From: Wuchereria bancrofti
Taxonomy: Eukaryota; Nematoda; Chromadorea; Rhabditida; Onchocercidae
Direction: 5' to 3'
NCBI GenBank assembly: GCA_005281725.1
Contig: SSBO01000003.1
Span: forward strand, 7,302,776 to 7,366,775
DNA: 64,000 nt
A program made the translations under genes and the position numbers. Positions 4,637 to 13,600 of the stretch are shown here, in pieces (position 1 is the first letter of the stretch; every line of letters starts with the position of its first letter). Below the pieces are notes generated by a model. That model was not told the origin of the DNA. It made no database searches and saw nothing but the letters and a program-made list of their open reading frames with translations.

Positions 4637-7600
4637 ATGAAAAAACAAATATCTGCCACGGTTATTGCAATATTTCTATTATTTGCCATTTCATGTGCTC
4701 AACAAATTAAACAACGTTAGTTATTTAAATTTGAAGCAAAAATTTAGAATTTTCGTTAAAACAATAAATTATTGACAGATTTCAAAACTATATTATATGC
4801 TGTAATAACGAGTAAATGTAATCTAAAAGTTTTCTACTTAACCTCTGCTTATAATCAGTAAATGCTGCAAAAATAATGGCAGTTATTTTTATTCTTTCAG
4901 ATAATATCACTGTTAACACTAAACAGTATATTAAAAATTTACAAATGATTTATAATTTCCATATTACATGAAAGTAATTTTTTGCTTTAAAATATTTACC
5001 AAAATATCGAATTCTGAACGTTAGAAGTAATTTTAATTTAGAAAATTTAAAATTTTTAAAAATATGACATTCTCGAGAAGCAGTGATATATATAATGCAT
5101 GAATGTTTGTTGCCAGGATTCAAAAACATAAACAAATTAGTATTTTTTAAAAATTTTCCTGATAAAATAATCAATTCCAAAAATCTCTGATAATTTATCC
5201 TTATTTTCTTCAGTTTTGAGAAGTTATCATTTGTAAAAAAATAATATTGCCTTACCATTTCAGCGGATGAATCATTATTGATACGTGAAGTCAGATCAAA
5301 TAGAGCGTATAGACAAGCGATTCCGCATAAAGAGGTAGGCATTTGTTAGATTTTTTAATTTCTAGAGATTTTTGTAGAAATTTTACCAAATATCATTGGA
5401 ATGCGAATAATAGCAGAATTTTTATAAATGAAAATTTTTTACTAATTGTCGTAAAAAACAAAACATTTAAATTACACTCAAATCCTAACATTTTTCTCAT
5501 TCGTGATGAGCCTATTTTGATAATATTTTAGTGCTTTATAATTCTATTATATCCTTTATAATTATATCTATGCGTTGCGCGTTGTTATAGTGTTGATTTG
5601 TTTGGTTTAATTACCCAAATTTGAGCTCGGCAAAATAAATCATCTGGCATTTCACGATAAATTCCACGATTGTGGTTCAGTATCCAATTCGGTAATTTGG
5701 ATTCTATTATAGTTTCAATGGTCGGTTGCTCTACGTTTTCGCCAATTACTTCTAACTGCCTTAACACTCTTTCCATTTCTTCGACTATTGTTTTCCAATT
5801 TCGGTCGTTTCGTTTTGTAGATATGAGCTCATTGTACAGCAATTTTCTTATGGTGGAAATACGACCAAATTTTTCCACTAGTAATTCTCTTATAATTTTC
5901 AGGTGCCCTATCATAGCCTCTTATTAGCTGTCCCTTTTAGACAAGAAACTAAATAATTTAACTTTTGTATGTCGGGTATGTTTTGAGAGTGTACGGAGGC
6001 TTCGAAACTATTCCAAAACTCTCTCCATGTTTTAAGATCACCACTGAACGTTAGTAACGATAGTTGAGGCAAATTTACTACTGTACGACATTCAGTTAGA
6101 CTGGGTTCCTTATTTCGTGTTAAGCGTTTAAGAGCTATTCGATATCGTCCTTATACATGGATAAGGTTATAATAGTATCCGTACCTATGTTGATTAAATT
6201 TAAAATACCTCTATCATCATTTGCCATACGACGTTGGGATTAGTTGAATGTGTTCCAACCACTTGTCGTTGATTTTTTCAAGGGTGCCAACATACTTTTC
6301 GAGGCGCATCAATTTTTCCTTGATGATTCTTGCCTCGTTACGTATTGCTGGCACAATACTTCTATTGTTGATTTCTGGTCTAACGGAGTTAGATCCATTT
6401 GTCTATTTCGTCGAGGAGTTCCTCGAGATTGCTTTTACTGATTTCACTCTGACAATTATGCTGGCAAACATACCTCACCTCGGGCACCAATGAATTGTCG
6501 TGGAATTTATTGACTGCCAGATAATTTATTTTGCCGAGCTCAAACTTGGGTAATTAAACCAAACAAATCAACACTACAACAACGCGCAACGCATAGATAT
6601 AATTATAAAGGATATAATACAATTATAAAACACTGAAATATTATCAAAATACCTGCAAAAACTACCCAAAAACGTAGAGTTAAATGATGGTTAGTGGGGA
6701 AGGTTGATTAGTTTATATATAGAACTAATTTGGCAGCCGGAAATCCGGAAGAAAACATTCCCATGAATGTAAAACAAAGATTGGTAACAAGATTAGTTTT
6801 TGTTGTGTGGGAAAAGAGGAAGTAGTTAGCATAATTTAGCATGATGGCTTAAAGATCTAGACATAGATTAATTACAAATGCAAAAATATTTGGTGATTGA
6901 CTCATCACGAATGAGAAAAAATGTTAGGATTTGAATGTAATTTAAATGCTTTAATAAAAAAGTTTTTTACTACACTTCCGACCGGAGGTGGTTGTTATTT
7001 GGTAGCACGTGGGATTTATAATAAATTGGAGTTTGCTTGTTTGGTAATCTCTTTTTCCAGTGATTTGGGAGGAGTTCGTAAAGTTTCCATTGGGATAATT
7101 TCAACCCTTTGATGGTTTGGATTTCTACAACATAAGAGATTAAATATAGAATGAATTAATGTGAAATTAGACTTAAAAGCAATAAGTACAATTGATATTA
7201 CCAAGATGATCAGTCTAATTATAATCAATCTCCAGTGCAACAAAAGTTGTTACAATTTAGCTTGTAAGTATGCTGTCGTCTTTTCGAATTCTCCTTCGAG
7301 TTGTTCTGATAATTCTTCTCCTTGTTAACTGAGCTCGTCCCAAATTTTTGATATTTCTCGTGGTTTGAGAATTGGATTGATCGTTTGTTGATTCTGTGCT
7401 AATATTTCTAGTGCTACATTGATTTTATCGATTTCAAATTTACTTATTAATCCGTCTCTAAATTCAATAGTTTTCAAATTAAGCGAATCAGACTTACACG
7501 GGGCAATTAATAATTTTCCGTTTATTCTTTTAGCTATCACGTCATTTCTTTGCAACAATAGATTCGCAGCGAGAGTAGGATTATCCTACGAGTGACAACC

Positions 7601-10600
7601 ACTCGATTAATAATAACAGATTGTTCCGATTTTCACAAGTCCGTTGTTCCATTAGTTTTAATTGCTGTTGAAACTCTTGTTGCAAACTATCGAATAAGTA
7701 TTTAAACTTCGTATTTTCGGGATCACCATTGTCTCCTCGATGTGTTTCCATCATCATTAGTTTACCAATGGATGACCGAGTGCCAAATTCGTGTTTCTTC
7801 TGTTTCTAACATTAGCGATCTTCGTCACAATGCCAATGACAATGTTAGCATTCATTAGACTGGGATTGGTGAAATTGCAATTTTCACTTCTAAATGTTTT
7901 GTTTTCCTTACTGAAGACGAATGATGTTTGTAATTCGTCTATGATAACATGATTCCCATATATTTGAGCATTAAAGATTCCCACCTTACTATATAGACAT
8001 TTTTTGGTCATTTGTTGGACGTTCCAGAGAACGATGCTATTATTGGTGATGCATTTCCCGTCTTGTGTAGCGCAATTCTTTCCGGTTCATTTCCATCGTA
8101 AAGAAATATTTCTCCTTCTGTTAATACCAAATTTGTTGTTGCTTAGCATCTAACTCCCAACCATCCGTAGGAGTGCACTTGATTGATTGTTGTCCATTTG
8201 TTATGGGAAATTTAGTTTAATTTAGTTCCATCCATCTGCGTTTGATTGTATAAGATTCCACAAGTTTCTGATGACGGTGCGGAAGTAGTTGTTTGGTACG
8301 AAATTACTGATAATGAAAACTATAGAAATGCTTTAGTACACACAGTTCGGGTGATATTATTACATTTGATCGCAGGGACTGTGATGGGGCTTCGAATGTA
8401 AACACTAACTTAAAACAGAGTGGAGTTCTCTGTACAAACTAACCATCCTTCCCCACTAACCATTATTCATCCGACGTTTTTGAGTGGTTTTTGGGGGTAT
8501 TTTGATAATATTTCAGTGTTTTATAACTGTATTATATCCTTTATAATTATATTATATCTATGCGTTGCGCGTTGTTATAATGTTGATTTGTTTGGTTTAA
8601 TTATCCAAATTTGAGCTCTGTCAGTCAATAAATTCCATGACACTAATTAAGGATTAATGAATTATTTTATAGATCACGTATGAAATATTTGCTAAAGTGA
8701 GCTGTGAATATTTATAATTTGACAATTTTGTATTAATGACTGAAGGTAATAATAACGTCTTTCAGGATAATGTCATCAAATTACCTAATCACAAGGTTGC
8801 TATCGCTCATTATGTGAACTTATCCAAATCCATAGCTGAAGTACCATCCAGTGATGCCGTGGTTAAAGTGTATGGCGAAGCAAATCCAAGTAAAACAGAT
8901 GAAGAATTATTGGATGTTGATACACAAATTGTGTATGCCAGCGATCATACATCATCAGTGTCATCATCTGACGAAAGTATTCATCATTTATCAATAAGCG
9001 GTTATGAGGCGCCGGCAGAAGAAACGGAAACGGCAGAGACGGATCAACAAGCTGAAGTCTTTACGGAAATGGAAGCATCAATGCGTCCTGCTATTGAGGA
9101 TCCATATGGTGATGGTGGTGGTGGTGACGGTGGCAGTAGTGGAGTTCTGACTGCTGAAGCAGAACAACAAGCGATCACTGCGGAAAACCAGTCGATGACA
9201 AACAGAGAACAAGGGAGCTCCTCTATCACAAATACTGAACAAGCTATTATACCAAGCAAAGAACCTACAAACATTACGGAATCTGAAGAAAGATTTAGGG
9301 AATCAGGAGAAAGCGTAACTGAGTCAAGTGTGAGTGATGTCAAAGTGACGGAAAGCGTCAAGAAAGCATGTGCGGAAGATTGTGATGTATCTACAGAAGG
9401 GTCAGTGGGAATAGATGAAACAGTTATTGAACTAAGCGAGACTTCCAGTGGTAGTGAAGAAGGCAGTATAATATCATCAACAGGTGATAGCAAAGAAAGT
9501 TACGGAGGTAGTACCGAACAATTTGAGAGTAAGAGCGTCGGTACTGAAGCTGTTAGCATGTCAACATCTGAAAGCGTGAAGACAGAATCAGCACCTGAAG
9601 GGTATGGAGCAGTACCGGAAACTGTCAGAAGCGAAACAGCACTGAAAATAGTAGAAGGTATTTCCAGCGAAAGCATTGAAATTACACCATCCGAATCAAC
9701 TATGGAATCATCCACTTATAATAACGTTACGCATACACAAACAAAACTGGTCGATATGCAAACTGATGCGGAAGATTTTGGTTATGGAGTGAGTTCTGAA
9801 ATTATAAAAGAGCAATCGAGTGAGGAAGAAAATTCCAGTAACATTTCAGGAAATTTGTCGAGAACTTATGAAGCACAACCAATATTAGTACCTGATGTTG
9901 GAGAAGAAACTTATAGTGCTACGTCTTTACCAGTAATAGGCGACAAAACAAAATATACGGAACAAGAAGAGAAATACGAAAACATCAAGTCAGATTCAAA
10001 AACTGGAGGAATCTATTCTTCTACAGAGACACAAGTATCAGGAGATAGTTATCAAAATCAAAAAAGTGTTACTAGAATTGAAACAGCAACGTATCAAAAT
10101 TTAGATCAGACAACTGCGATTGAGACAGAAATGAGTGCCAACCAATCCGACTTAACAACAAACTCTGCGGAAGTCACAAGTGAACTATTCACTTCACCGA
10201 TAACGAGTAATACTACAGCGGATACTTCGTACATTATAACTGAAGGGACTGCTACCGCAAAAATAGAAGGTTCTCCAGTCATTGAAACAACAGAAAGTAC
10301 TTCAGGTTCAGGTTATGAAATTTATAATGAACCTCAAGATACCGTAACAGTCATTAAAGTAGGTTTACCGGGGCTAAACAGAGAATCAGCATCTCATTTG
10401 TCAAAATCGATTGAGGAAGCAACTTCATTGTCCAGTACCAGTATGGAAACCGGAATGGCAAGCGAAAAAGCAAACATAGCATTGGATGGTACGGTAAGCG
10501 AAAAACCAGAAGACCTGAAAGGTTCCACAGAATCTAGCATACGAGTAAATGAAACAACAGAATTTTTCAAGGAAGCATCTCTTACGTCTGTTGAAAAATT

Positions 10601-13600
10601 ACCAGAATATAGTACAGTAACATCAGAATATATTACGGAATCAACGTACCAGAAAAAAGAAACTACAGAATTGCAAAAAACAAGTGAGAAAATTGAAGTA
10701 TCTTCTTCAGCACCATATGATACTAAAAAAATACCTGGCGATTTATTAACAACATCAGATGGAGCAGTTGTAATTTCTGAATCTTCTAAGTATCAAGCAG
10801 CAACAAAATTAGAAGGGCTAATGGCAGTGGAAGAAACAACTGAAATATCAAGATCTGATGAAGGATTAGTAGGATATGGTGATATAGGTCATAGTGAACA
10901 GGTATCAAGTAAGGAAACTCAAGAAGGATCAGGAATTATTGCCACAGAAGGACGTGAAGAAACTACAGAACGAAGTGAAATGGTAAGTGGAGAAATTTCA
11001 ACTAATGATGCAACAACGACATTTATTGAACCGAAAGCAATTTCGAATGAGACAATTATACCTGATGAAGCCACAGGATCTCAGGAACAACCGATAGGAT
11101 ATGAACAATTAGCATTAACCGCTGATACTGGTAGATCTAAAGAAGCACCGTTCAATCAAACTATAACTAATGAAGAGCAAGTAACGGGGTATGAACTAAG
11201 TGCATCTAGTCAAGGTGTTGCCACATCTGAAGTTGATATTACAACTGACAAAGTTGTGGCTGTGACAGAAAGTACATTAACTGCTCAAAGTGAACGCGCA
11301 AATATCCGAACTAGTCCGGAAGATTTTGGTTATAGTGGCGCAGTAGAAGGAATCACTGAGAGGGAATATATTGGTAGCAATACTGCAATGAATTCAGTAT
11401 CTATGATAAGTGCTGAAGAAACAATGGAAAATTCAAATTTAAGCCAACAGTATTCAGAATTAAGTGAAAGTGCGGAAGCTAGCAAATCTACTGAAGGAGG
11501 AACTGTTTACCTCAAAGGTACTAGCATGGCGGAATCTGTCGAGCAGTCTGCAAGTGAAGAAGCAGCGACAACAAGTAAAAGTATTGGTAGTGCACCAAGA
11601 TACGATGTCAGTGTTTCGGATTATTATCCTACAACTGAAGAGATAACTAATGAGTTATCACGATCAGATGGAAAATTAACAGAACAACAGGAAATTGTAG
11701 AAAGTACATCAACTTTAAAATCGGAAACTAGTGAAAGAATATCAGTAGTAGATGAAGAAACCAGAAATTTTGTAAGCATCACAGAATCAGGAGCTGATGG
11801 TTATAGAGTTTCTGCAGAAGAAAAATTCACAGAAACTCCAATTAGTGAAACAATATCAATTCAAGTAGAATCTAATAAAATCTCAACGGATGCAGATAAT
11901 TTTGGTTACGGTGGAAGACTTAAAGAGGTAACAGAAGCCGAAACTTTAGTAACAAAAGCTGAATCTATCTTGACAACACAAGGAATGCAATTTACTGATG
12001 AAACAAAAAGTGAATCCATCCAGCAACCTTCAGCAACAGAAACTTCATCAGCGGATCGTACTACAAAACTTGAAACAAGTTCTGCAGTTGGAAGCGTTGA
12101 AGTTTCTTCACAATATCCTGCCGATGTAGGAGACATTGTGACATTTTTAGATACAAATAATGAAATCATAGAAACTGACAAAGCTTCAGAAATTGTTGAA
12201 TCTACTAGCCAAGCATCTAAGACGGAAAGCACATTAATGCATGTAATAACGAATGAAGAAGAAACGCCGATACCTTATGGTGGTATAAGTGAAGAAGCTC
12301 CAAAACTAATTACAATGACAAAGAAAACAAAAACGGGTCTTTCAAAGCTAACCGGTGCTACAGTTGTTGTAACGAAAGAAGCAAGAGAAGAAAGTGAAAT
12401 TACTCATACTGCATCAGAGTTTTATGAAGAAAATAGCGCAAAAATTCCAGCTAAAATACCTATGGGTCCTGAAGATTTTGGATATGGAAGTGAAAAAGAA
12501 TTGAGTACATTGATATCATCAAGTGCAGAACCAGTCACGACAATAAGATCAGAGTTATCATCTAACGTTGATCAAACTTCCATTGCTCCAGAATTATCAG
12601 TTAGCAATGAATATGCAAATTCTGGGATGTTAAAAGCGCCCGAATCTAAAAGCAGCGAAGAATTGCTGAGTGCAACTGTTCCTTCAGTTACATCAAATGC
12701 TTTAACTGAGTCATTTACTACAATTCAAAAAGAAATTGTTACAAGAGAAGATGAAAGAAGTACGCCGACTACAAAAGCCTCCGGAAATAACGATGATAAA
12801 AAAGAATCAAGCAATGCGGTATCCACTTCAACTACTATTTCAGAAGGTAATTTCTTGACTTTTCTTTGTCATGACTTTTCTCTGTTATTTGTTTCCTATT
12901 TTCTTCCCATTTATCTTATATATATATATATATATATATAAAAGACAGAGGTTAACTTTTAATCTATCAAAATTCAGTAAGTATAATAAAAACTTAAAAA
13001 TGCTAAGCTCAGGATTAGCTATAATTTGTGCGCTAATTCGAGATACTACTAGTAAATGTTTCTGATTTGAATCTGTTTTCGGAATAGAAAAAAACAATTC
13101 TGATTAAGAATATTAATATTGCATCAATTTTTTAGTGTAATCGCATCTTTTCACCTCAAAAAAAAGGGCTTAGATATAAGTTATCAATCTTTTTAATTGA
13201 CTTTTTAATCAATTAATTCAAATAATTCTAATGTTCCAGAAAAGAAACAGGATGATCATTCAGGTGTGTCAAGTACAGGTATTTTTATTAAATTTGTAAT
13301 TCTTAGAATTTTACTGCAAAAGAGAATTTGTTCAGATTATCTGTTTCGATTAAAAGTATTATCTGTGAGCTATAAATATTCTAAAGACAGATTAAAATAA
13401 TTCCTATTTTTCTTTTTAATTTTACAACAACATTACCATTCATTTCAAAATTTAGGTATTTCAAGTATTTAGATTTAAATTCTCAGTTTAAACTGCCTAT
13501 TTAAAGAGCATTGCTTAATTTTTTCCACAATTTAATGTATCAAATTTTAGTATTATCAAGCATGCAATCGAAGCAAATTGGTAACTCAGCGAAACGGAAA

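Follow-up and report, generated by a model that had tools for sequence, protein, structure and literature searches.

The 22-nt spliced leader SL1 occupies a fixed place inside the long terminal repeats (LTRs) of BEL/Pao retrotransposons in Wuchereria bancrofti. It is present, intact, decayed or cut, in every copy counted from two LTR families, it is carried by several lineages as judged from their gag domains, and in the mosaic LTRs inspected it appears to be the joint between exchanged U3 and U5 blocks. The best explanation, held with moderate confidence from comparisons between copies, is that the DNA-encoded SL1 serves as the R region, or as its core, letting families exchange U3 at SL1. 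One insertion of this kind is found in a 64,000-nt stretch of contig SSBO01000003.1 (the window).

The insertion in the window

Three SL1 matches with zero, one and two mismatches occur in the window (Table 1), and 100 shuffles of its sequence gave none. The exact copy forms nt 415-436 of an inner LTR with the borders TGTAGT...ACGACA, and 43 nt separate it from the LTR 3' end. An initial annotation, made from the letters alone, had placed the three copies inside LTRs of a BEL/Pao element with an AATAAA shortly after the exact one, and all of this was confirmed. Its SL1 offset of about 414 nt also stood; its LTR length of 484 bp is corrected to 479 bp.

Table 1. Parts of the compound insertion, in window coordinates
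Feature	Positions	Strand	Evidence
Left target-site repeat copy CTAAT	5442..5446	+	5 bp, sequence
Left outer LTR, U3 internally deleted, 3' end cut	5447..~5649	+	Repeats; 5460-5543 and 5513-5602 match inner LTR
SL1, 1 mismatch (G16A)	5604..5625	+	Pattern search
gag piece, later DUF1759 part, 3' end runs into left LTR piece	5585..5920	-	PF03564, 26.3 bits, E 8.6e-6
gag piece, first DUF1759 part	5911..6150	-	PF03564, 46.3 bits; same place in genome-wide DUF1759 search
Putative primer-binding site TGGTGCCCGAGGTGAGG	6473..6489	-	Sequence; similar sites in related loci
Inner LTR, 479 bp	6496..6974	-	TGT...ACA borders, primer-binding site, U3 family copies
AATAAA	6525..6530	-	9 nt past SL1
Exact SL1, proposed R region	6539..6560	-	Pattern search, genome-wide copies
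Internal 3' region, 5' of inner LTR on the minus strand; frames short and broken	6975..8423	-	
Right outer LTR, 5' part missing, ends ATGACA	8424..8642	+	8424-8592 matches inner LTR
SL1, 2 mismatches (C11T, G16A)	8594..8615	+	Pattern search
Right target-site repeat copy CTAAT	8643..8647	+	Sequence

The element is assigned to BEL/Pao because two pieces of the Pao-type gag domain DUF1759, in a minus-strand frame, lie behind the inner LTR; the domain has 118 matches in the genome. LTR pairs with TG...CA borders and a target-site duplication are represented by the complete element L003/L004 (GTTAC) and by the outer pieces in the window (CTAAT). A putative tRNA primer-binding site (PBS), TTGGTGCCCGAGG, comes after the inner LTR, and PBS-like sites are seen in related loci, although none of the PBS motifs searched was found at family B loci. 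Three scanned pieces of the internal 3' region (6975..8423, minus strand) contained no Pfam family above the cut-off.

The layout first described, an inner LTR between two outer ones, needs correction. The outer pieces are opposite in orientation to the inner LTR, CTAAT stands on both outer flanks, and the core (3' region, LTR, PBS, gag) is both inverted and permuted; window positions 5442-8647 are a compound insertion, not a clean nested element. Its three SL1 copies are therefore not independent witnesses, and the evidence has to come from copies elsewhere in the genome. A-family LTRs in mixed orientation are likewise clustered at C12:10878871-10888290 and C8:1443456-1445738. An open frame of 1401 aa (window 8736-12941, plus strand), with relatives in Brugia, Loa, Acanthocheilonema and Dirofilaria, begins about 94 bp past the right LTR and points the same way as the SL1 relic in it.

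SL1 in the genome

The genome searched comprises 86.5 Mb in 108 contigs. A protein encoded next to the insertion is 100% identical to a W. bancrofti entry, and a HhaI repeat start had no match; Brugia was rejected as the source. SL1 with at most two mismatches is found at 371 places and the same pattern reversed at none, which together with the window shuffles rules out a chance origin of the matches. Exact SL1 is followed by A, C or T at 28 places and by G-N-[CGT] at 178, with GT in every one among the matches listed. A minority of the 371 places was inspected one by one. The first 30 exact places listed (L001-L030) have, by eye, the LTR-like surroundings of a few families. Exact SL1 followed by GTAA occurs at 11 places, of which 10 were fetched: four (L031-L034) have an SL RNA body by eye, confirmed by Rfam for L031, L033 and L034, and six (L035-L040) have LTR-like surroundings by eye, L036 giving no Rfam match. 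That only four of the 11 show an SL RNA body is probably due to collapse of the 5S/SL arrays in the assembly.

In the window and in those LTR loci that were scanned, Rfam rules out an SL RNA gene or pseudogene as the source of the matches. No Rfam family reached its cut-off in the window, the SL1 RNA (RF00198; exon, donor and Sm-bearing body) included, as the initial annotation had held for the LTR site, and scans of L003, L036 and L041 found no SL RNA gene.

Position and conservation of SL1 in LTRs

Copies were collected with U3 queries that end one base before SL1, and SL1 thus played no role in their recruitment. All 61 counted copies of families A and C have SL1, or a decayed or cut SL1, at the same place, and none is without it. 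Family A, that of the window, supplied 24 copies from 48 matches, the uncounted ones being second pieces, matches short of the U3 end, or left out; SL1 is exact in 12, has one to three mismatches in 11 and an insert in one. For family C the count takes in 37 of 40 matches, since three end at assembly N. Here 21 are exact, 13 have one or two mismatches (among them L105-L107, actually cut at the SL1 3' end), and single copies carry an insert, keep only the 3' part, or run into a gap. Some counted copies are duplicates with common flanks (L094/L095, L098/L100 and L105-L107). Four extra A/G-like copies (L142-L145) include two exact matches, one with two mismatches and one with a 1-nt deletion. Two sets of apparent exceptions were rejected: L113-L115 break off at assembly N, and the 5' LTR of L063 agrees with its relatives at the start only, the next match being at the LTR end, a deletion.

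In family A, SL1 is the best-conserved 22-nt block (mean pairwise column identity 0.935, against 0.83-0.85 in the two preceding blocks and 0.69 in the following one). In family C its value of 0.917 is not above the two preceding blocks (0.916 and 0.931), and the following block falls to 0.65. AATAAA or ATTAAA lies within the 16 nt preceding or the 20 nt following SL1 in eight of nine family representatives, where shuffles lead one to expect 0.43; in families C, F and H the motif stands directly before SL1.

In two elements SL1 stands between U3 and U5 in the 5' and the 3' LTR alike, as is the case for an R region. In the complete element L003/L004 the LTRs are 99.5% identical, with SL1 ending 11 nt before the LTR end; in L041/L042 they are 100% identical, with no clear target-site duplication. 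The initial annotation had expected SL1 where R should begin, and the common position in the 61 copies and the U3/U5 joint at that point agree with this.

Variants of the arrangement are also seen. Two SL1 copies 53-124 nt apart occur in single LTRs (L020/L021, L027, L030, L056, L057, L061), and because L056 and L057 differ both in location and in flanks, the double-SL1 LTR has multiplied. Another element reportedly has a repeated R-like unit in its LTR, comparable to these double-SL1 LTRs, with no spliced leader in the title of the report. L055/L085, with two SL1 copies 234 nt apart and like flanks, resembles a local duplication. In L120 and L124 a decayed SL1 ends in TTTCAG, similar to a splice acceptor.

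Mosaic LTRs with a joint at SL1

One U3 type, ending approximately ATGTTAAATAAA, precedes SL1 and U5 types as different as gtttcacgaca, gtgtctac..., gtgcgg..cagttcgg and gtgcgg..cgacgaac; in L071 a similar U3 end is followed by SL1 and then attgagctcc. Conversely, the U5 gtttcacgac(a) is found behind three different U3 types. The C1 (L041/L162) and C2 (L062) elements share a U3 84% identical over the 369 nt up to SL1; past it the leader falls to a background level of 55%, the Gag DUF1759 domains are 30% identical in amino acids, and the PBS differ (TTGGTCC against TTGGTGCC). The D LTRs of L016 and L030 agree at 94% in U3 and at 59% beyond SL1. In L105-L107, SL1 is cut at CAAGTTT, and the same stretch precedes cacgaca in L022, as a short-homology jump might leave it.

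In the individual mosaics inspected, SL1 thus appears as the crossover joint between U3 and U5. A U3 that stays constant up to SL1 with a U5 that changes right behind it is the pattern expected of first-strand transfer between elements through SL1. In these mosaics U5 did not bring along nucleotides from upstream of SL1; provided that strong-stop DNA was complete, the RNA would then begin at SL1 or within it.

Carriers and noncarriers among Pao lineages

From the 118 genome matches to DUF1759, 50 loci (30 and 20) were examined. SL1 with no more than two mismatches lies upstream in 18; in the other 32 the nearest SL1-like sequence has at least seven mismatches, and 13 of these were set aside as unclear, the 5' LTR being truncated or unrecognised. 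Intact members without SL1 had been named in the initial annotation as the finding that would speak against it; families A and C, in which this was tested, contain none, whereas SL1 is absent from other Pao lineages of the same genome.

A gag-domain tree of 21 rows (12 with SL1 and 9 without, after removal of L167/L170 and of rows that were identical, short, stop-bearing or unclear) rejects a single clade of carriers with p-AU 1.9e-9, the long branch of L162 being of unsure position. The SL1 label requires at least four changes on this tree, two of them forced by the well-supported branches alone; it is also clustered, with only 4 of 500 shuffles reaching as few as four changes. In an earlier 35-row tree, with the unclear rows as a third group, there were eight changes. 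The gag tree thus shows the carriers as polyphyletic, and several carrier lineages are indicated.

Another history would be a single old capture, with SL1 now an inert relic shared by descent and the mosaics made by DNA recombination or gene conversion. In its favour, families A, B, C and G have by eye a similar TTATAATGTTG-like stretch where U3 ends, SL1 is decayed in many copies, and its conservation in family C does not exceed that of the U3 end. A relic does not account well for the polyphyly on gag, for the joint at SL1 in several mosaics, for family A, where SL1 is better conserved than its flanks, or for a C-type U3 joined to the U5 gtttcacgaca in both LTRs of L003/L004, an insertion with its target-site duplication. 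We regard such a history as quite unlikely.

Closely related loci with and without SL1 differ in U3. L156, with SL1, and L157, without it, have gag domains 89% identical in amino acids and agree in PBS and U5 end; L071 (with) and L070 (without) agree in U5 end, PBS and gag, the L071 domain being 99% identical to that of L068, which is itself identical to that of L070. A simple trans-splice acceptor at the joint of the SL1-less sisters was looked for and rejected: no AG acceptor was found at the joint in L070. L157 and L163, which are SL1-less relatives of L156, instead have a donor-like CAAG/GTAAG 60-85 nt before the PBS-like site, near the place where SL1/GT stands in L156.

Is SL1 renewed in each cycle?

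The initial annotation proposed that the genomic RNA begins with SL1 and would resemble trans-spliced host mRNAs with a trimethylguanosine cap. In the corresponding model the RNA is trans-spliced and reverse transcription writes a fresh SL1 into both LTRs each cycle, which resembles what Foster et al. inferred about the origin of such copies. SL1 is exact across diverged LTR families (many loci, however, were chosen by exact SL1), the joint at its 3' end is precise, and its presence in L156 and L071 and absence from their sister loci would suit a trans-spliced RNA. Against renewal, G16A is common to both outer LTRs of the window and G2C to L125/L128, a probable LTR pair with an unreadable target-site duplication. 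The same mutation in both LTRs indicates that the SL1 of the RNA was template-encoded (n=2), although the window case could be coincidence since G16A is also seen in other copies. An acceptor at the joint could come only from the TTTGAG of SL1 itself, which is a poor one, and none of 10 loci, near-copies among them, has a TT[TC][CT]AG on the stretch from SL1 to the gag domain.

A parallel that favours renewal is Cer1 of Caenorhabditis elegans, also a nematode LTR element, where by the excerpted text of PMC3315495 a spliced subgenomic RNA may receive SL1. That element differs in being of the Gypsy/Ty3 type, with SL1 added in trans, and its full-length 8-kb RNA is not trans-spliced, which also counts against renewal. 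On balance, trans-splicing in every cycle is considered unlikely, and the earlier interpretation as a whole is partly supported.

SL1 as a proposed shared R region

In LTR reverse transcription, U3 is derived from the 3' end of the RNA and U5 from its 5' end, the two being joined via R. With a DNA-encoded SL1 as R, the genomic RNA would start at or within SL1 and be polyadenylated in, or soon after, the 3' SL1 copy. Minus-strand strong-stop DNA would then end in the SL1 complement and could anneal to the 3' end of any RNA that bears SL1, that of its own element or of an unrelated Pao family, and because R is shared, families would swap U3 blocks at an SL1 joint. The signal directly before SL1 in C, F and H fits such a start, since an RNA beginning at SL1 has AATAAA or ATTAAA only at its 3' end.

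SL1 would have been captured at least once, the donor being perhaps a trans-spliced RNA or perhaps SL RNA, and such jumps would then have spread it. Trans-splicing would most naturally explain where the first SL1 came from and how SL1-less lineages gained it later. An alternative origin is unspliced SL RNA, hinted at by GT behind SL1 in 6 of 10 U5 types and by GTAATT in part of family E, as in SL RNA genes.

The GT also invites a third reading, in which SL1 is retained as a promoter or initiator, sometimes with a donor (SL1/GT), giving spliced element or host-fusion mRNAs with a cis-encoded SL1. In the SL RNA genes of Ascaris, the 22-nt leader works as a promoter element. The 178 sites with exact SL1 and G-N-[CGT] noted above are consistent with a donor, as is GT behind SL1 in the U5 types B, C1, C2, E, F and L156, types named by the analyst and not certainly independent. 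A cis donor can outcompete the spliced leader for an acceptor, as reported in the excerpts of PMC4558846. Four U5 types, however (A, D, G and H, that of the window included), lack GT, and U3 ends have no evident similarity by eye to the flanks of SL RNA genes. Cis-splicing from SL1/GT to a site before gag was rejected, the 10 loci above having no acceptor-like site there. A role of this kind is considered improbable.

Some observations also fit poorly with SL1 as R. Families A, C and F have TATA-like sites at -44 to -48, which at the usual TATA-to-start spacing of 25-31 nt would predict a start about 13-24 nt before SL1. The mosaic combinations of gag and U3 require either a further template switch or an event at the DNA level, and the conservation of SL1 in family C, no higher than that of the two preceding blocks, gives SL1 no advantage there. 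The clustering of carriers on the gag tree, the mere two changes forced by well-supported branches and the unsure place of L162 count on the same side.

Comparison with known systems

The initial annotation knew of no description of such an association, but one is in print. In Brugia malayi, Foster et al. 2020 (PMC7181701, excerpts) reported 316 SL1-like elements, of which 120 lie outside SL RNA genes and 60 of those 120 at most 1 kb from PAO elements; their inference was that PAO RNAs had acquired leaders, which then became integrated. As in W. bancrofti, SL1 can be exact outside SL RNA genes, near Pao, and sometimes at both ends on one strand; in contrast, the available text has SL1 flanking or within 1 kb, with no placement in an LTR or R, family spread or exchange joint. 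The association and the idea of its origin are thus already published for B. malayi, and the fixed LTR position, the spread among families and the module exchange at SL1 are new. Among the matches listed in a search of open-licence literature, no account of these three was found, and the excerpts of PMC4586141 and PMC9094657 are silent on SL1. SL1-captured B. malayi reads (PRJNA525735, given in the excerpts of PMC7181701) bear on the analogous elements of that species.

The DinoSL relicts of retroposed dinoflagellate genes (PMC6050394, excerpts) are similar in that a spliced leader is fixed in the genome via reverse transcription, with tandem copies. DinoSL, however, is the tag of a retrogene, and SL1 here is an inherited part of an LTR element.

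If SL1 is indeed R, there would be a concrete reason for LTR elements to keep a host leader, namely a shared R together with mimicry of trans-spliced mRNAs, and promoters would have a simple route between retroelement families. More tentatively, the host leader may act as the shared R of a whole community of LTR elements, in which U3 promoters circulate among unrelated Gag and PBS types and trans-spliced SL1-less lineages are drawn in; carriers and trans-spliced RNAs have the same 22 nt, so any strong-stop cDNA could land on the 3' end of any carrier. SL1-anchored RNA-seq in filariae may then capture element RNAs or LTR-driven host transcripts that were never trans-spliced.
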